Positions 85 to 42,130 of a stretch of 42,130 nt of DNA are shown here, piece by piece. The notes under the pieces are model-generated. The model saw nothing but the letters and a program-made list of their open reading frames with translations. It was not told where the DNA came from and made no database searches. This stretch comes from a virus, in IMG/VR virus record IMGVR_UViG_3300030106_004411, positions 1 to 42,130 of that record; one strand, 5' to 3'. The position numbers and the translations under genes were made by a program. The stretch's first letter is position 1; the number at the start of each line of letters is the position of its first letter.

Positions 85-218
85 TTTAAACACAAGTCCC
101 TTGAGAGTTTGAAGCGGTCACTTCAAAGTCAAGGTATCTTCACCCGGGTGTTACACCCACAAGACCCGGTAGTTCAGGAGCGAAGCGTTTAAATTATCAA
201 AGATCGTCTGATCTTTGA
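85..218 (-). ncRNA. structured leader of the left minus-strand gene
   Basis: Read on the minus strand, the region ahead of the gene at 51 holds three strong stem-loops in a row. The first is 197-205 with 210-218 (9 bp, loop GTCT). The second is an outer stem of 161-166 with 133-140 (two-base bulge) enclosing GGGTG/CACCC at 146-158. The third is 99-104 with 129-134 enclosing a 7-bp stem, 108-114 with 121-127. No U-run follows any of them. This looks like a regulatory leader (attenuator or riboswitch-like). I do not recognise a known class, and its function is inference. Confidence 0.4.
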
Positions 219-244
219 ACAACATGAGATTGTTAAAGGTTCCC
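214..244 (-). promoter_or_regulatory. degenerate copy of the phage-type promoter
   Basis: The minus strand carries GGGAACCTTT (244-235), identical to the upstream block of the promoter at 40611-40641. At the same 14-nt spacing the second block reads GTTCAAA, which matches TATAAAA at only four of seven positions and overlaps the first leader hairpin. It may be weak, controlled, or not a promoter. Its position ahead of the left minus-strand gene favours a regulatory role. Confidence 0.3.
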
Positions 245-30972: not shown

Positions 30973-31427
30973 GCACGACCTATATGGGGAACTTTTCTCA
31001 TGCCAAAAGGTAGGGTTTTCATTAGCCTTTTTGATTGGCTTTGTTGCAGGTCTTTTTGCCCTATGCGTTTGTTTTCCACTTGCCATGCCCCCGAAATAAG
31101 ACAATAAGAGTTAGGTGCACGTTTTATTAGTTCATACATTTCTGGACGTAAATACTTTGTGTCGCTTGAGCAAAAGCCCCCTAAACTGTGGCTACGCTTC
31201 CATTTATATTTAGCTATCCGAAGAGTTGGAATGCACATTTGCTTGTCTTGTTCGTCTAACCACTCTTCATTTAACCACTTTTCATTTGATCTCTCATATG
31301 TGTAAATATATACATACCTATCACATATATGGAGGCTTGATATGTGGGCATAGCAAAGAACATCTTTTGTCATATTTTTGCAACGACGCCCTTTTGCTGT
31401 TTTTCCTGTACATTGATGTTTTTTCAT
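30969..31427 (-). CDS. DUF5763-like zinc-binding protein
   Basis: 152 aa. The N-terminus QCTGKTAKGRRCKNMTKDVLC-YAH has the spacing C-x3-TxxGxRC-x8-CxxH of small zinc modules (DUF5763 type) found in phage and bacterial proteins. The rest contains aromatic-rich strands (RYVYIYTYERSNEKW) and a basic C-terminus. No SD precedes the ATG (TAATAAAATG). Function unknown; the module is thought to bind nucleic acid or protein. Confidence 0.6.
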   Translation of the reverse strand: MKKHQCTGKTAKGRRCKNMTKDVLCYAHISSLHICDRYVYIYTYERSNEKWLNEEWLDEQDKQMCIPTLRIAKYKWKRSHSLGGFCSSDTKYLRPEMYELIKRAPNSYCLISGAWQVENKRIGQKDLQQSQSKRLMKTLPFGMRKVPHIGRA

Positions 31428-34611: not shown

Positions 34612-35358
34612 TTATTTTCCTTTCTTTTTTAGTAATTCCGGTTTAAGTCCACCACCACAATGTCTGAAGAACTGGCAATACTCTGGGTTACACTCCCATC
34701 CATATGCTGGAGACACGCCCAACTTAACAGGGGGGATATCATTAGCCACCAAGTCATTAACCATCTTCCAGTACTCCATTGCAAGTTTTATACAATTCCT
34801 ATTAACAAAAAGTTCCCGAATATTTGAATTATCTTTATTGTAGTATACAAGAGCCATTCTTAATCTTTTATTATACTCTTTTTCATACCAATAAGCATAC
34901 GTTCCGAGTTGCAATTCGTAGTTATTAGCCGGATTGGGCTCGGGGTTTCTTCCAAATAGCGTTTTAAACTTATAGCTATTGGCAGTTTTAATGTCATATA
35001 GTACACCAGTTGAGCCAATTACCACATCAAAGAACCCTCTGACGTTCCATTCCGGTATTTTAATTTCTTGTTCTGTGAGTATGTCTGCATCATCAATATT
35101 GTATTTCTTAGCAAAATGGTGTACAGACTTTTCAAAATCATCGTGAACCAACTCCCCAAGCCGAAGAAGCCTCATAGACTTGTCCGACTTGGGAGCAGAT
35201 TCTATCATATCAATGTGAGCAAACCTGTGTTTACGCACACAAAGTCCAGCCCCCGAAGCATGAAACCACTCTTCCCGACCTTTATATCTATCATCAATTT
35301 TTTGCTGATTGACATCATGCAAATAATCAGTATAGATATTTACTAGGTCTAGTTTCAT
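34612..35358 (-). CDS. Cas4/RecB-like PD-(D/E)XK exonuclease
   Basis: 248 aa. Motif I at GELVHDDFEK (about 69-77); motif II D111 in RGFFDVV; motif III D122-I-K124; QLGTYAYW (Q150 and Y154) forms the QxxxY motif that marks RecB/Cas4 nucleases. Cysteines at 40, 223, 228 and 234 match the 4Fe-4S cluster ligands of Cas4/AddB-type enzymes. It should resect double-strand ends to give single strands for the annealing protein encoded next. No CRISPR context, so a phage recombination function is likely. A promoter-like element lies inside the gene (34786-34817). Confidence 0.85.
   Translation of the reverse strand: MKLDLVNIYTDYLHDVNQQKIDDRYKGREEWFHASGAGLCVRKHRFAHIDMIESAPKSDKSMRLLRLGELVHDDFEKSVHHFAKKYNIDDADILTEQEIKIPEWNVRGFFDVVIGSTGVLYDIKTANSYKFKTLFGRNPEPNPANNYELQLGTYAYWYEKEYNKRLRMALVYYNKDNSNIRELFVNRNCIKLAMEYWKMVNDLVANDIPPVKLGVSPAYGWECNPEYCQFFRHCGGGLKPELLKKKGK
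34786..34817 (-). promoter_or_regulatory. internal copy of the phage-type promoter
   Basis: Inside the nuclease gene, minus sense, GGGAACTTTT (34817-34808) and TATAAAA (34792-34786) are separated by 15 nt instead of 14. It would start RNA about 175 nt before the annealing-protein gene. The codons (REL, KL) could produce it by chance, so confidence is moderate. Confidence 0.4.
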
Positions 35359-37388: not shown

Positions 37389-37565
37389 TTATTCCTTGGG
37401 CTTTAATTGCTCTGCAATACTTAATGCAAGAATACCAGCATCTATTGCGACCTTATAATCTTTTAAAGCCACCTTGTCAGTAATAACTGTAGATAAAAAG
37501 CTTTTAAGGTTTTGCAATTTGTCTTTCGATGGTTTGAATGTAGAGTCTTGTATATCTTTATTCAT
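37389..37565 (-). CDS. 58-aa helical protein
   Basis: ATG at 37565 has AAAGGAGA just upstream, inside the end of the previous gene (overlap 8 bp). The start MNKDIQDSTFKPSKDKLQNL and the end AIDAGILALSIAEQLKPKE form two helices. It fills an otherwise empty 170-bp gap, so it is likely real. Function unknown. Confidence 0.65.
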   Translation of the reverse strand: MNKDIQDSTFKPSKDKLQNLKSFLSTVITDKVALKDYKVAIDAGILALSIAEQLKPKE

Positions 37566-37743
37566 TTTTGTCTCCTTTACTTTTTACACCACAAATTGTA
37601 ACTGTGACTTCACTTGCCTCGCTAACCCCCAATGCCTGTATAACTTCTTCCCAAATATGGAACTTTTTAAAATCGTCAGCATATAGGGTTAAGTGTCCTT
37701 CGTATAAATATTCTTTTTTTAATCTTGGTTTTGCCGTATCCAT
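37558..37743 (-). CDS. small hypothetical protein behind a phage promoter
   Basis: 61 aa, basic front and beta rear (PRLKKEYLYEGHLTLYADDF; VTVTICGVKSKG). AAAGGAGC precedes the ATG. The GGGAAC-type promoter at 37759-37789 lies directly upstream, so this may be the first gene of a transcription unit running left. Confidence 0.65.
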   Translation of the reverse strand: MDTAKPRLKKEYLYEGHLTLYADDFKKFHIWEEVIQALGVSEASEVTVTICGVKSKGDKNE

Positions 37744-37758: not shown

Positions 37759-37789
37759 TAGTAAACGATCAAGTTTCTAAAAAGTTCCC
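37759..37789 (-). promoter_or_regulatory. phage-type promoter, variant -10
   Basis: Minus-sense TTGGGAACTTTT with the ten-base block at 37789-37780, then 14 nt to TTTACTA (37765-37759), a weaker match to TATAAAA; TACTAAT two bases further is an alternative. It sits in a true gap between genes, 16 nt before the SD/start region of the gene at 37743. Confidence 0.5.
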
Positions 37790-37791
37790 AA

Positions 37792-38067
37792 CTAATTGAA
37801 AAAAACCCATTTTTCTTGTGAACTGCTAACAGGAACATACCCTAACATATATATTACCCACTCTTTGTGGTATATTTTACGAGCCTTAAGGTGTGCCACC
37901 CATAAACGATCAGCCTCATCAGGGGTCATCTCCCCATCTTGATGAAAGCTTTCGGGAGACCAATCAGGCTGGAACAAAAGGTTTATATCTTCTTCGTCTA
38001 AAACATCAAGATCATAAAACCTAGATAGCCTTTTGATTTCTTTGGTACTAAGTGTTGTGTATTCCAT
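37792..38067 (-). CDS. hypothetical early protein (91 aa)
   Basis: Acidic, tryptophan-rich (YDLDVLDEEDINLLFQPDWS; DEADRLWVAHLKARKIYHKE) and mostly helical. Begins exactly at the stop of the previous gene. No family recognised. Confidence 0.65.
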   Translation of the reverse strand: MEYTTLSTKEIKRLSRFYDLDVLDEEDINLLFQPDWSPESFHQDGEMTPDEADRLWVAHLKARKIYHKEWVIYMLGYVPVSSSQEKWVFFN

Positions 38068-38450
38068 TAAAATATTTCAAACCCCCCACTATTCCGACAG
38101 AAACGAGAGAAGTCTAAGACGTTATCTACACTAAAAGGATATTTAATTGGTAGGGTTTCTCCATTTTCGTCAACGACTGAGCCTTCTTCTGCTTTCTCAT
38201 AGTCTCGTGCATATTGTGCAACCTCTCCACTATTGACCAACTCATCTAATTTGTTTGCAATCTTAATAGCCTTGCTTTTGCTTATTTTGTAGCCATCGTT
38301 ATAACTACCCATTTTAACATCTCGATACGTAAGAATATTATCACAGTTTTCTGCAACAAAGTTCCATAAGGGTCGCCAAGACCAAACACTATTTCTAAAA
38401 TAATCATTGTTTGGGTCTTTGGGTTTTATACTATTTAAATCAAATCCCAT
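38067..38450 (-). CDS. conserved hypothetical, MGFDL...VWSWRPLW family
   Basis: 127 aa. Starts MGFDLNSIKPK, then YFRNSVWSWRPLWNFV and GSYNDGYKISKSKAIKIANK, a layout shared by a widespread group of uncharacterised proteins in phages and bacteria. The conserved aromatic NxxWxWRPLW core suggests a globular fold with a pocket. Biochemical function unknown. Ends overlapping the next start. Confidence 0.7.
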   Translation of the reverse strand: MGFDLNSIKPKDPNNDYFRNSVWSWRPLWNFVAENCDNILTYRDVKMGSYNDGYKISKSKAIKIANKLDELVNSGEVAQYARDYEKAEEGSVVDENGETLPIKYPFSVDNVLDFSRFCRNSGGFEIF

Positions 38451-38476
38451 ATTTATTTACTCCTTTTCTAGCTAAC

Positions 38477-38677
38477 TCATCCTTCCATATTAATTGTGTC
38501 TATATCTAACTCTACCGCAAGATTCTCCGTTAAAGATATTAAAGAATCTTGGTCATAGTCAGTTAGGGTATGTGTATCTAAGGCATGCCCATTGTTAAAA
38601 CGGAAGTAACAATTACCATATCCTAGCTTTCTAAGTACCTTGTAAACTAGCAAAGATTGCCTTTTACTAAGATCCAT
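38477..38677 (-). CDS. small hypothetical protein (66 aa)
   Basis: AAGGAGA site before ATG at 38677. Starts MDLSKRQSLLVYKVLRKLGY and ends acidic (ENLAVELDIDTINMEG). Helical; no motif seen. Confidence 0.65.
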   Translation of the reverse strand: MDLSKRQSLLVYKVLRKLGYGNCYFRFNNGHALDTHTLTDYDQDSLISLTENLAVELDIDTINMEG

Positions 38678-38679
38678 AA

Positions 38680-38874
38680 CTACTTCTCCTTTGCCTTAAA
38701 TGGATTATTCCATATACCTTCTTCTTCAAGTTGTTCTTTAGCCTCAAGTAACTCTTCAGCCATTTTAATAGCACCTCTTTCTCCATTAAATGAACAACCC
38801 TTTAAAAGGTAATCTACCAGCATTTCTTTATCACCTTCCTCTACCAATTGTGCTACTACTTTCATTTTACCCAT
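38680..38874 (-). CDS. small acidic helical protein (64 aa)
   Basis: AAAGGAG upstream of ATG at 38874. MGKMKVVAQLVEEGDKEMLV and KMAEELLEAKEQLEEEGIWN form amphipathic acidic helices. Overlaps the next gene by 8 bp. Function unknown. Confidence 0.65.
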   Translation of the reverse strand: MGKMKVVAQLVEEGDKEMLVDYLLKGCSFNGERGAIKMAEELLEAKEQLEEEGIWNNPFKAKEK

Positions 38875-39076
38875 CGTTACTCCTTTGTATTATTGGTGTG
38901 TACCGGTACTCACCTTCTACACAGATATCATCTATGAATGAGCAAGTATTGGTGTCTACACACACGATTACATCATCGCTTTCTTCAGAGCCGTATCGTA
39001 TTCCTTCTCCATACATTAGTTCCGACCCACAAAAAGGACAACTTTCTTCAAATGTTGTTGAGTAATCTATTTTCAT
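38867..39076 (-). CDS. acidic zinc-knuckle protein (69 aa)
   Basis: CPFCGSEL at about 13-16 followed by VCVDTNTCSF near 39-45, four cysteines for a zinc ribbon, in an acidic protein (SEESDDV, DDICVEGEY). Starts 4 bp after the repetitive ORF ends. Confidence 0.65.
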   Translation of the reverse strand: MKIDYSTTFEESCPFCGSELMYGEGIRYGSEESDDVIVCVDTNTCSFIDDICVEGEYRYTPIIQRSNDG

Positions 39077-39080
39077 ACTT

Positions 39081-39266
39081 TTAGCCTAAACCCCGAAAAC
39101 CACCCCGAAAACTACCCCGAAAACCACCCCGAAAACTACTAGATGAATAATTATATGGAGTGTGTACAGGGTTTCTGCCAGTCCTGTACCAAAGAGTAGA
39201 CTCTGTCAATAGCATAGACATATCACCACTCCACAATGAATAATTATATGAAGGTGTCGAGAACAT
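39081..39266 (-). CDS. 61-aa peptide with YNYS and FRG repeats
   Basis: ATG at 39266. Contains two in-frame copies of a PSYNYS/TPYNYS unit 31 codons apart (DNA repeat of 15 bp at 39143-39157 and 39236-39250). It ends SSFRGGFRGSFRGGFRGLG, encoded by four 12-bp tandem units (39091-39138). Both repeats keep frame, which supports coding. RGG-like tails bind RNA in other proteins. The SD is weak. A longer frame to 39416 reads through the tRNA-like sequence and is not used. Confidence 0.45.
   Translation of the reverse strand: MFSTPSYNYSLWSGDMSMLLTESTLWYRTGRNPVHTPYNYSSSSFRGGFRGSFRGGFRGLG
39091..39138. repeat. 4 x 12-bp tandem repeat
   Basis: Units CCCCGAAAACCA and CCCCGAAAACTA alternate (plus sense) from 39091 to 39138, in frame with the minus-strand ORF where they encode FRGG/FRGS. 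Confidence 0.9.
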
Positions 39267-39293
39267 TTGACCACTCTGATACGCCCAAAAGTG

Positions 39294-39351
39294 TGTTGGG
39301 GAAGGGATTCGAACCCTTGTAGGCTTTCGTTGCCGAGAAGCCACTCGATTT
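39294..39351 (-). other. 3' half of a class II tRNA (possible attP core)
   Basis: Minus sense: the acceptor 3' strand CCCCAAC plus A (39301-39294), a perfect T arm AAGGG-TTCGAAT-CCCTT (39318-39302), a 25-nt variable arm with stem GGCTT/AAGCC (39343-39319), and the anticodon-stem 3' strand TCGAG preceded by AAA (39351-39344). The matching 5' strands (GTTGGGG, CTCGA) are absent upstream, so no intact tRNA forms. Two 9-bp direct repeats (39367-39384) lie next to it. Such 3' tRNA halves are normally attP cores; no integrase is in the window, so a tRNA-like RNA remains possible. Confidence 0.6.
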
Positions 39352-39467
39352 GGAAGTAGGTCTAATAGACATCTTAGACATCTTAGAAGACCCAAGCTTT
39401 TCAAGGCTATGGGCACTAACCATCTCCCACCTTCATAATTTTGGTTATTAATTTTTCTTTCATTACG

Positions 39468-39498
39468 CTATATACGCCAGCACTTTTAAAAAGTTCCC
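39468..39498 (-). promoter_or_regulatory. phage-type promoter ahead of the tRNA-like element
   Basis: Minus-sense GGGAACTTTT (39498-39489), 14 nt, TATATAG (39474-39468). RNA would begin near 39463, at or next to an ATG that opens a 15-codon frame (39463-39416), and run through the tRNA half into the repeat-containing ORF. No other gene lies between, so this promoter seems dedicated to that RNA. Confidence 0.6.
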
Positions 39499-39525
39499 AA
39501 CTATTTTCATATTGTTTGTTATTGG

Positions 39526-39918
39526 TTAAAGTTCTGAGGATATATAACACGATTCTTCCATTGTGTCCTCAAAATACTTCGCTACTTCTAACCCAAATTG
39601 GTAATCTGCATAATCTTTCAAGAGATATTCAATGTCAACTTGCAACTTTTCTTTGTGCTGGTTTATACCTTTGTCTTGAAAAAATTCAACCAACTGTTCA
39701 TTGTTATAGCTATCCTTCTTGTCAAAGAACTCGTCAAATATCTTTAAGTTTTCGCCAAGACTTTTTTCTAGCTTTTTCATTTCGTCTTGAAACTCCTCAT
39801 CATTACATATTATGTAGTCTATGCTTGTTTCCTCTGCCCCAAATCTTTCTGGGGTATTAGAGGGCTGTACTGCAAACCACCATTTTCCATTTATATCGCC
39901 ATTATAAAATCTTCCCAT
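39526..39918 (-). CDS. acidic hypothetical early protein (130 aa)
   Basis: ATG at 39918 preceded by AAAGGAGA and separated by one base from the upstream stop; the frame's earlier ATG at 39936 lies before the SD. Starts MGRFYNGDINGKWWFAVQPS, then long acidic helices (CNDEEFQDEMKKLEKSLGEN; EKLQVDIEYLLKDYADYQFG). No recognised family; strong negative charge suggests a host-protein-binding or DNA-mimic role, which is inference. Confidence 0.65.
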   Translation of the reverse strand: MGRFYNGDINGKWWFAVQPSNTPERFGAEETSIDYIICNDEEFQDEMKKLEKSLGENLKIFDEFFDKKDSYNNEQLVEFFQDKGINQHKEKLQVDIEYLLKDYADYQFGLEVAKYFEDTMEESCYISSEL

Positions 39919-39919
39919 T

Positions 39920-40081
39920 TCATATCTCCTTTTCATCTTCCATTATCATTACCACCCACCACTTTGGGATACAGTCATCGCAATAGGCTTTCTCGTCAAA
40001 GTCCTGTGCGTATAGTGTGGGTTTGTCACCCGATCCAAAACTGCCTTCTTTGTTACATGTGTCGCAAGTCGGTGTTTCCAT
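39920..40081 (-). CDS. 53-aa zinc-finger mini-protein
   Basis: ATG at 40081. METPTCDTCNKEGSFGSG holds the first CxxC (C6, C9) and KAYCDDCIPKWW the second (C34, C37), a classic four-Cys zinc knuckle. The tail is acidic (MEDEKEI). It fills the gap between two genes with 2-nt and 1-nt spacings. Confidence 0.75.
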   Translation of the reverse strand: METPTCDTCNKEGSFGSGDKPTLYAQDFDEKAYCDDCIPKWWVVMIMEDEKEI

Positions 40082-40083
40082 CT

Positions 40084-40362
40084 TTAATTATCCACCTTAA
40101 CCTTTCTTAGTGTTGTTTTAAAATCAGAAGTAAATAGACAGATATAGTCCTTACCTGTTGGTTCTGAGTACCCCTCAATCTCTATTCCAAGTTTAGAGAA
40201 AATTGAGAGGGCTTGATTTTTCAAGTAGCCAACGCCATAATCCCAACCATGAATCACAGACTTTTGTTGCCTAGTGTCTGTAATCTTACACCTAGTTCCC
40301 TTGAAATCAGTTGGGGCTAAACGCTTTACTATAAACATTCGTTTGTTTTTTGGTTCCTTCAT
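40084..40362 (-). CDS. small basic hypothetical protein (92 aa)
   Basis: AAAGGAGAAATGA precedes ATG at 40362. Basic beta-rich start (KEPKNKRMFIVKRLAPTDFK), aromatic middle (SVIHGWDYGVGYLKNQALSI), compact 90-residue domain. Family unknown. Confidence 0.65.
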   Translation of the reverse strand: MKEPKNKRMFIVKRLAPTDFKGTRCKITDTRQQKSVIHGWDYGVGYLKNQALSIFSKLGIEIEGYSEPTGKDYICLFTSDFKTTLRKVKVDN

Positions 40363-40383
40363 TTCATTTCTCCTTTCTGTTAG

Positions 40384-40587
40384 TTAGTTCCTTGCAATAT
40401 TCAGCTTTAGTTCTCTGAGCAACGACTTAGCGACTCCTTCGGGTAACTTAAGAATTGTTTGAGACTCAAAACATTCATACTCCTTGCCCTCAAGAGTTAC
40501 TTTTTTGGCAACCTTCTCATCGGTAAAGATAATTGAACCAGCCTCTTCACTTGTTAGGTTGACTTTAATAATTTTCTCTTTTTTCAT
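40384..40587 (-). CDS. small hypothetical protein behind a phage promoter (67 aa)
   Basis: ATG at 40587 is used because AAAGGAA lies upstream and the longer frame (TTG at 40620) would start inside the -10 box of the promoter. Mixed beta/alpha (KEKIIKVNLTSEEAGSIIFT; VTLEGKEYECFESQT). Function unknown. Confidence 0.65.
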   Translation of the reverse strand: MKKEKIIKVNLTSEEAGSIIFTDEKVAKKVTLEGKEYECFESQTILKLPEGVAKSLLRELKLNIARN

Positions 40588-40610
40588 TGTTGGCTTTCCT
40601 TTCATATGTG

Positions 40611-40641
40611 TTTTATACAACAGAGGAAAAGAAAGGTTCCC
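40611..40641 (-). promoter_or_regulatory. phage-type promoter
   Basis: Minus-sense GGGAACCTTT (40641-40632), 14 nt, TATAAAA (40617-40611). Transcription would begin near 40604, 17 nt before the gene at 40587. Confidence 0.7.
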
Positions 40642-40651
40642 ATTTATTTGA

Positions 40652-40673
40652 GAACCCTTCTTTTCTTGGGTTC
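40652..40673 (-). terminator. hairpin after the first minus-strand gene
   Basis: GAACCC at 40652-40657 pairs with GGGTTC at 40668-40673 (6 bp, 10-nt loop), just after the stop at 40680 and before the next promoter. No U-run, so termination is uncertain. Confidence 0.4.
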
Positions 40674-40679
40674 CTTTAA

Positions 40680-40898
40680 TTATGCGACCTCATCGGAACG
40701 TAGCCATTCTAACATGCCATCATATCTATCTATGATAACGCCTTCCACAAAAACCTCTACCTTCTTTTTATAGTCTGAAGTCCATAATTTTCGGACATGG
40801 CAACCTTGACCTTCCTTTATATATTCTAGCCAATCAATGACATCTTGTTTGCTTTTTATAACAAACTGTTCTTTTTTATTTTTCTTTAGCGTTTTCAT
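40680..40898 (-). CDS. first well-supported minus-strand gene, basic protein (72 aa)
   Basis: Starts MKTLKKNKKEQFVIKSKQDV, then a helix-strand domain (IDWLEYIKEGQGCHVRKLWT; VEVFVEGVIIDRYDGMLEWL). AAAGGAAAA lies upstream of ATG at 40898 and a perfect phage-type promoter precedes it. As the promoter-proximal gene it is likely expressed early and strongly. No family recognised. Confidence 0.65.
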   Translation of the reverse strand: MKTLKKNKKEQFVIKSKQDVIDWLEYIKEGQGCHVRKLWTSDYKKKVEVFVEGVIIDRYDGMLEWLRSDEVA

Positions 40899-40924
40899 TG
40901 TGTATTTTTCCTTTCATATACATA

Positions 40925-40955
40925 TTTTATACGATTTGGAATTAGAAAAGTTCCC
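40925..40955 (-). promoter_or_regulatory. phage-type promoter, best match
   Basis: Minus-sense GGGAACTTTT (40955-40946), 14 nt, TATAAAA (40931-40925). Expected start near 40918, about 20 nt before the gene at 40898. Confidence 0.75.
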
Positions 40956-40995
40956 CACCGAGGAGAAAGGCTATTATGAGTAGACATAATAATTA

Positions 40996-41088
40996 TTATA
41001 AATATGGATTTGTTATGCCTTTGTGATAGGAAATTGCCGGGTAAAAACATATTAATATTTTATGCTTTTGATGGGATAGGTCTCGCAT
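40996..41088 (-). CDS. possible 30-aa peptide
   Basis: ATG at 41088 with AGGAG 5 nt upstream. Starts MRDLSHQKHKILICFYPAIS. Good ribosome site but low complexity AT-rich surroundings and no upstream promoter seen, so uncertain. Confidence 0.3.
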   Translation of the reverse strand: MRDLSHQKHKILICFYPAISYHKGITNPYL

Positions 41089-41114
41089 AGTTACTCCTAT
41101 TCCTTTTTTACTTC

Positions 41115-41170
41115 TAATATATATAACTATACCATATATATATATATAATATATATAACTATACCATATA
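41115..41170. repeat. 24-bp AT-rich direct repeat, two copies
   Basis: TAATATATATAACTATACCATATA-type 24-mers (41115-41138 and 41147-41170) are identical, with a period of 32 bp. Highly melting-prone; suits a DNA-unwinding element. Confidence 0.85.
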
Positions 41171-41276
41171 AACTAGTTCTTTCTTTTAATAAAGGTTAAT
41201 TAAAGGTCTTTATAGGTTATTTCTTTTTGGTTCTTTTTCTTTGTGAACTTATGACAGGATTATATGACAAAAATAC

Positions 41277-41315
41277 CGATCTATTTTTATTGTCGTTTTT
41301 TATCGATCTATTTTT
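41277..41315. repeat. direct repeat CGATCTATTTTT, two copies
   Basis: CGATCTATTTTT at 41277-41288 and 41304-41315, 27 bp apart, between the AT-rich repeats and the iterons. Confidence 0.8.
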
Positions 41316-41366
41316 TGCCGAGATATTGGGGAAAAAACAGATTTATATTCGGTGGCGTGGCGATTT

Positions 41367-41489
41367 TTGTACATAATGGCGAAAGGACTTAATTTTTTGT
41401 ACATAATAACCTCACGTTTTAAAGTTTGTACATGATTTTGCCTTAAAATTTTAAGCCTGTACATAATTTCTACATGATTTGTACATAAT
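41367..41489. repeat. six 11-bp iterons, consensus TTGTACATAAT
   Basis: Copies at 41367-41377, 41397-41407, 41426-41436 (TTGTACATGAT), 41457-41467 (CTGTACATAAT), 41468-41478 (TTCTACATGAT) and 41479-41489. The first four are 30, 29 and 31 bp apart (about three helical turns); the last three are directly head to tail at 11 bp (one turn). Face-aligned spacing implies cooperative protein binding. The core TGTACA is palindromic. Confidence 0.85.
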
Positions 41490-41543
41490 AGCCATAGGAT
41501 TAGTAACTATTCCTAATCCTTAGAAAAAAAACCTTAAAAATAT

Positions 41544-41573
41544 GGGAACTTTTACGAACTTCTTTATTATAAG
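41544..41573 (+). promoter_or_regulatory. phage-type promoter, plus strand
   Basis: GGGAACTTTT (41544-41553), 14 nt, TATAAG (41568-41573). The expected start of RNA is near 41580, 13 nt before the gp88-like gene. The only well-formed plus-strand member of the family. Confidence 0.7.
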
Positions 41574-41592
41574 TATAAAAGATGAGGATAAA

Positions 41593-42130
41593 ATGACAAA
41601 AAAAGAACAAAGGGACTTCCATAAATCAATTATTGGTTCTGATTTGTCCAACACGTCAAAAATGCCTTGCGTATCCTTCAACCTATCAGCCAAACATTGT
41701 ATCACGGGCTCTAAGCTAGTAAATGTTAAGGGTTCAGTTTGTGAGGGTTGCTATGCCTTAGACGGCTTTTATAAAGTCTATGGACATATTGAAAAGATGA
41801 AGCCCAAAACAGAAAAAATTAAAAATGAATTATGGGTTTCATCTATGGTCTGGTTAATTGAAAACCAACTAAGCTATATATATAATGGTCGAAAAAATGA
41901 TAAAAGCTATTTTCGTTGGCATGACTCGGGAGATATTCAAAGTGTTGAACATTTAGAGAACATTGCCCAAATAGCTAGAAAACTATCTCATATTATGTTT
42001 TGGCTCCCAACTAGAGAATATAAAATTCTTGCTAGTTGGCGTAAAAAATATAAAGAACCTAAAAATCTAATCATTAGGGCTTCGGCTCACATGGTCGACA
42101 AAGAACCACCTAAAAACCTTGGATTAACGT
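41593..42130 (+). CDS. gp88-like protein (partial, runs off the window)
   Basis: 179 codons visible from ATG at 41593, with GAGGA upstream. Matches the gene-product-88 domain of many phages: MPCVSFNL near 24-31, Cys at 26, 36, 50 and 53 (GSVCEGCYA), then FRWHDSGDI at about 107-115, and IIRASAHMVDKEPP near the visible end. The Cys quartet and RWHDSGD resemble metal-binding sites, but the biochemical function of the family is not established. First plus-strand gene right of the iterons, so probably early. Confidence 0.85.
   Translation, partial: MTKKEQRDFHKSIIGSDLSNTSKMPCVSFNLSAKHCITGSKLVNVKGSVCEGCYALDGFYKVYGHIEKMKPKTEKIKNELWVSSMVWLIENQLSYIYNGRKNDKSYFRWHDSGDIQSVEHLENIAQIARKLSHIMFWLPTREYKILASWRKKYKEPKNLIIRASAHMVDKEPPKNLGLT

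Follow-up and report, generated by a model that had tools for sequence, protein, structure and literature searches.

What reads the promoters of the genes that lie opposite the structural genes in IMG/VR record IMGVR_UViG_3300030106_004411? The window analyzed here is the whole record of a tailed phage, 42,130 bases classed as linear. Its plus strand has the terminase, portal, and head genes (280–30539), and a block of small genes runs along the minus strand from ~40898 down to 30551. This minus-strand block is labelled early by analogy with phages of like layout. A sequence-only reading of the window had proposed a promoter family for this block, with four sites in which the ten-mer GGGAACYTTT stands 14 nt from a TATA box and a fifth with a weaker second block. 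All five sites are present and exceed chance in shuffle tests. Judged from sequence, we consider it likely, though well short of certain, that they are extracytoplasmic function (ECF) type promoters of the early-type region of an uncultured marine phage clade, read by an ECF sigma factor that is most likely the host's; we infer ECF-type recognition from known promoter architecture.

Promoter sites in the window

The putative promoters and the genes downstream of them are:

40925..40955, minus strand: promoter 1, GGGAACTTTT ... CGTATAAAA with a 16-nt spacer, an exact two-block match
40680..40898, minus strand: small early-type gene (72 aa) downstream of promoter 1, an open reading frame (ORF) with relatives
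40611..40641, minus strand: promoter 2, GGGAACCTTT ... TGTATAAAA with a 16-nt spacer, an exact two-block match
40384..40587, minus strand: small early-type gene downstream of promoter 2, from the listed ORF 40384–40620
39468..39498, minus strand: promoter 3, GGGAACTTTT ... CGTATATAG with a 16-nt spacer and a TA start signature at ~39464
37759..37789, minus strand: promoter 4, GGGAACTTTT ... CGTTTACTA with a 16-nt spacer
37558..37743, minus strand: small early-type gene (61 aa) downstream of promoter 4, an ORF for which no family was found
41544..41574, plus strand: promoter 5 (weaker), GGGAACTTTT ... ATTATAAG with a 16-nt spacer and a −10 box without G (ATTATAA)
41593..42130, plus strand: GP88-family gene (Pfam PF17338, E = 4.5e-20), truncated at the record end

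Exact matches to GGGAACYTTT-N13..15-TATAAAA occur three times in the window (40925, 40611, and 34786) and never in 100 dinucleotide shuffles. Allowing up to three mismatches gives seven matches to the two-block pattern, against 0.82 expected. The constant spacing of the original proposal stands, since 14 nt from GGGAACYTTT to TATA is the same as 16 nt between AAC and the CGT triplet. Its second block does not: it reads [C/T/A]G-TATAA in the window and is not a free TATA box, and the refined motif is an A-tract, [G/T]GGAAC-TTTT, exactly 16 nt from AAC, and then CGTATAA, which has the form of an ECF −10. The site at 37759–37789, earlier singled out for a weaker second block, is no outlier, with CGTTTA being a common −10 variant in relatives. 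The weaker site is instead promoter 5, because the G of its −10 is missing.

Predicted transcription starts lie at ~40921 for promoter 1 (23 nt ahead of the start codon at 40898), ~40607 for promoter 2 (~20 nt ahead of an ATG at 40587), ~37755 for promoter 4 (12 nt ahead of the start codon at 37743), and ~41578 for promoter 5 (~15 nt ahead of the ATG of the GP88 gene at 41593). The start of gene 40384..40587 was set at the ATG following AAAGGA, instead of the TTG of the listed ORF. The suggestion that every site stands at a sensible distance from a gene start does not obviously hold at promoter 3, which faces a gap of ~390 nt in which no coding gene is evident. No Pfam match was found for genes 40680..40898 and 40384..40587, and the former has no family.

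Further copies of all or part of the motif are present in the window. A copy with both blocks perfect and a 17-nt spacer lies at 34786–34817 (minus strand) within the exonuclease ORF 34612–35358 and is also found in two relatives (L084 and L085); it could be a protein-coding coincidence or an internal promoter. GGGAACYTTT at 30987 (plus strand) has no −10. GGGAAC[CT]TTT with a poor −10 occurs at 213–244 (minus strand), opposite the structural-gene strand and close to the record's left end, and a similar site is seen at the corresponding place in relative L092 (8199, minus strand).

Enrichment across the clade

At least 593 TerL relatives are encoded in IMG/VR. Contigs carrying this set of terminase, portal, and capsid genes also have early-region genes in common. 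Those shared across the clade code for an exonuclease, a PDDEXK nuclease, a DUF736-like protein, and two short proteins. Early regions of relatives were fetched by way of the conserved Cas4-like exonuclease (~90 loci), and their genes were called with a crude script (longest ORFs with ribosome-site preference), so that "intergenic" is approximate and some true sites are labelled coding.

Words enriched upstream of 590 early-strand genes were counted with no seed. GGAACTT is the top 7-mer (96 seen, 5.1 expected), and GCGTATA (29 and 1.5), CGTATAA (35 and 3.5), and ribosome-binding words are likewise enriched. The structural-strand upstream set has other top words, with TGGGAAC weakly enriched (12 versus 2.2). 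The two-block motif is found in 91 of the 590 early upstream regions (0.6 when shuffled) versus 3 of 316 on the structural strand (0.1 when shuffled). The sequence-only reading had made its proposal hinge on the motif being enriched ahead of the early genes of relatives, and the proposal comes through this comparison strongly. Position, strand, and enrichment together argue for a putative promoter family belonging to the opposite-strand small-gene region.

Searches of 44 whole records gave 120 matches to the motif and 2 to the reversed pattern; apart from one exception, the matches in a genome all lie on the same strand. Collection-wide, a stricter motif finds at least 120 stretches versus 9 for the reversed pattern, and clade genes are present in 83 of 114 newly fetched loci. 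A chance origin of the motif is ruled out by the shuffles, the reversed-pattern controls, and the strand bias. A first scan of the collection had returned 59 matches, about half of them sharing a conserved coding context that reads RNLEGTFREIRRIKPD and some nine sharing another repeated context; raw match counts were not used because of these shared contexts. Another conserved context, GACTAAGTAAGC-GGAACTTTTTGCGG[AG]CGCCTGCGTATAA, was observed in three contigs, L255, L269, and L342, which have 43–46% GC and are without clade genes.

The distance between the two blocks is nearly invariant. Following intergenic early-strand GGAAC (~90 loci, non-redundant), NGTWNA is located at offset 16 in 88 of 306 cases, at offset 17 in 12, and at most other offsets in ~3, versus offset 16 in 4 of 118 for opposite-strand GGAAC seeds. 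When 90 non-redundant promoters ahead of ORFs are considered, the spacer is 16 nt in 76, 17 nt in seven, and 15 nt in four. Start codons lie mostly 14–32 nt beyond the predicted +1.

Conservation at individual sites follows the motif. In the gap at 39081–39530, the sole stretch kept in relatives is 39471–39507, which corresponds to promoter 3 (82%–89% identity, 16 loci). Upstream of the gene that follows promoter 1, the motif is kept in L109 and L244–L247, with the blocks conserved and the spacer diverged. GGAAC-N16-NGTATA is present upstream of GP88 genes in L301, L224, L188, and L079, and the L092 counterpart before GP88 has a −10 without G (CTTTTAA), like promoter 5 of the window.

Promoter class

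ECF promoters are characterized by AAC in the −35 and CGT in the −10 (PMC8103513). Mycobacterium tuberculosis sigmaH reads GGAAYA at −34 to −29 and G-11 T-10 T-9 and requires a rigid spacer (PMC6411747). For RpoE1 of T. tengcongensis, CGTC is required and the TATA following it is dispensable (PMC3397946). The clade sites have an AAC core in the −35 box, as seen in the GGAACTT enrichment, CGT in the −10 box at offset 16, and a rigid spacer of 16–17 nt (76 plus 7 of 90). The −10 profile over 91 non-redundant sites is C53 G75 T88 W98 T59 A70 A70 (percent), and the base that follows is uninformative. With the G placed at −11, the +1 falls on a conserved A (A33, 76% of 90 promoters) with a T just before it (T32, 67%). 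The sites do not have a TTGACA-like −35 or a TATAAT with −11A and −7T. Sigma70-type pairs are not enriched in early upstream regions (75 versus 79.9 shuffled), and TTGACA is rarer there than in shuffled sequence (9 versus 19.8). The remark that the upstream block is unlike the sigma70 −35 box and closer to the GGAAC box of ECF promoters was supported, with AAC and CGT both conserved.

Known ECF promoters used for comparison were those of Escherichia coli sigmaE (−35 GGAACTT), Bacillus subtilis sigmaW (−35 ATTGAAACCTTT), EcfG (AAC / CGTT), and M. tuberculosis sigmaH (GGAAYA / GTT). The sigmaW promoter is TGAAAC-N16-CGTATA. Clade sites resemble this group in an AAC −35 with an A/T tract, a CGT −10, rigid 16–17 nt spacing, and a start ~10–11 nt past the G of the −10. 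They are unlike it in being located in phage early-type genes, in being many per phage, and in having no known cognate sigma or anti-sigma factor. No description of the combination GGAACTTTT-N16-CGTWTAA was found in the open-access papers searched, subscription papers being outside the search.

The mechanism that we propose would proceed as follows. RNA polymerase carrying an ECF-family sigma factor would read the sites through an ECF (group IV) architecture, consisting of an A-rich upstream stretch, a GGAAC −35 with a T-tract, a rigid 16-nt spacer, and a CGT[A/T]TAA −10, and would start ~11 nt past the G of the −10. Expression of the small genes opposite the structural strand would accordingly begin when the host ECF factor is free, or because it is free. 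Release by infection-caused envelope stress is one speculative way in which this could happen.

Source of the sigma factor and alternative explanations

A factor of the phage's own, one of the causes put forward from the sequence, was not supported by domain searches. Sigma70_r2 was absent from 44 clade records (10 of 14 control genomes were positive), and Sigma70_r4 was absent from 32. Sigma70_r4_2 was detected in just three records, above the cut-off in G010 and below it in two others; in G010 the domain forms the HTH portion of a protein of HTH-HNH-like type. With the phages yielding no sigma-factor domain, the simplest source is an ECF factor of the host, and by elimination the sigma factor is probably of host origin.

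The alternative that survives best, which we nonetheless regard as unlikely, is that the clade encodes a very divergent sigma factor or RNA polymerase specificity factor of its own, comparable to gp36 of phiEco32 or gp47 of 7-11. The promoters would then be middle rather than earliest. A very divergent phage sigma could escape hidden Markov model searches, and extreme divergence is documented: the factors of 7-11 and phiEco32 have 15% identity, and 7-11 promoters are likewise bipartite with a 16-nt spacer, GTAAtg-16-aCTA (PMC8948821). These phages also resemble the clade in having a dedicated non-sigma70 promoter class. The likeness ends at the sigma gene, which phiEco32 and 7-11 carry and for which no domain was found in the clade, and at timing, as their class is middle or late with early genes on sigma70, whereas the clade class covers the early-type region. 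In addition, none of the clade-shared early genes looks like a sigma factor, and no second promoter class that would express a phage sigma first was seen among the early genes.

Less probable again is that sigma70 polymerase reads TATAA while an activator from phage or host, bound at GGGAACTTTT, takes the place of the −35 contact in the manner of MotA. T4 middle promoters combine a MotA box with a sigma70 −10. The clade sites are similar to them in having two blocks, an upstream box that is not sigma70-like and a TATAAT-like downstream block, whose TATAA core resembles the sigma70 −10. They differ in the sequence of the box and in a −10 of CGTWTAA rather than TATAAT. The distinguishing bases of a sigma70 −10 box are −11A and −7T. 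Across the 91 clade sites −11A reaches just 56% (T 42%) and −7T is at background, yet the C and G that precede TATAA are conserved. The rigid spacing also matches ECF geometry, and the start signature fits a G at −11.

That the sites are no promoters at all, only protein-binding or coding sequence that holds both blocks by chance, is very improbable: coding coincidences do exist, as in the first collection scan and at 34817 (minus strand) in the exonuclease ORF, but strand bias, fixed spacing, the start signature, and the excess over reversed-pattern controls in whole records speak against it, as does the placement of most sites 14–32 nt plus leader ahead of start codons with ribosome-binding sites. 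A virion RNA polymerase was also considered and rejected. Proteins of 1426, 948, and 1200 aa are without a Pfam match, and single-subunit polymerases are not known to use a two-block promoter with a 16-nt spacer.

Host and significance

Several points weigh against recognition by a host ECF factor. Promoter 5 is without the G of CGT. The full motif with the correct spacing is all but missing from 398 Pseudomonadota genomes (1 match, 10 control matches), which means that the host lies elsewhere, is unsampled, or has promoters of its own that differ. Immediate early expression fits poorly with the usual state of ECF factors, which anti-sigma factors keep inactive, unless infection releases them.

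The scan of genome contigs for host promoters used TTGGGAACTTTT-N13-CGTATAA, which corresponds to a 17-nt spacer instead of 16, and its two matches are uninformative either way. No prophage relative was identified by TerL in genome contigs. TerL matches in cultured phages are all <60%, with ~25% among the best matches, and the portal, exonuclease, and PDDEXK proteins have no match in cultured phages.

To our knowledge, described phages mostly begin with the housekeeping sigma factor of their host or with a virion RNA polymerase. Phage 7-11, for example, starts infection on the host housekeeping sigma factor (PMC8948821). It is possible, and we suggest it only tentatively, that in this widespread uncultured ocean clade the earliest transcription has been given over to an ECF sigma factor of the host, with a host stress signal switching on the phage genes and the housekeeping sigma unused for this region. 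That signal is possibly the envelope damage of infection itself. If true, the start of infection would be tied to a host stress-response regulator, with ECF-type promoters across the early-type region and no enrichment of sigma70-type ones. The motif also provides a searchable signature: across hundreds of unannotated contigs it marks early genes, which may hold functions in host takeover, and it could help to find the host through a matching ECF regulon.

Leaders and neighboring non-coding DNA

Two features were observed in the upstream regions of relatives. GTTGGC is enriched in early upstream regions (30 of 590 versus 5.3 shuffled), several times within GGTTGGCnnn...(T)AACCC-like stretches. 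Leaders in L304, L263, L227, L252, L260, and L277 open with a small inverted repeat just past the −10 (AAGCCAA...TTGGCTT or GGCAC...GTGCC), possibly a 5'-terminal hairpin that protects the transcript.

Downstream of promoter 3, the non-coding stretch 39288–39440 (minus strand) has a tRNA-like T-arm (AAGGG-TTCGAAT-CCCTT). A tRNA was rejected, as ARAGORN and Rfam gave no match and folding was not significant (z = −1.5). No relatives were found for a 59-aa ORF within this stretch, for which a small RNA or a long leader is a possible reading. Ahead of the GP88 gene, non-coding DNA at 41366–41502 has several iteron-like copies of TGTACATAAT, possibly an origin or operator array, and the surrounding region is ~69% identical to L092 5332–5690. 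A 12-nt tandem repeat, ACCCCGAAAACC/T, occupies 39090–39137.

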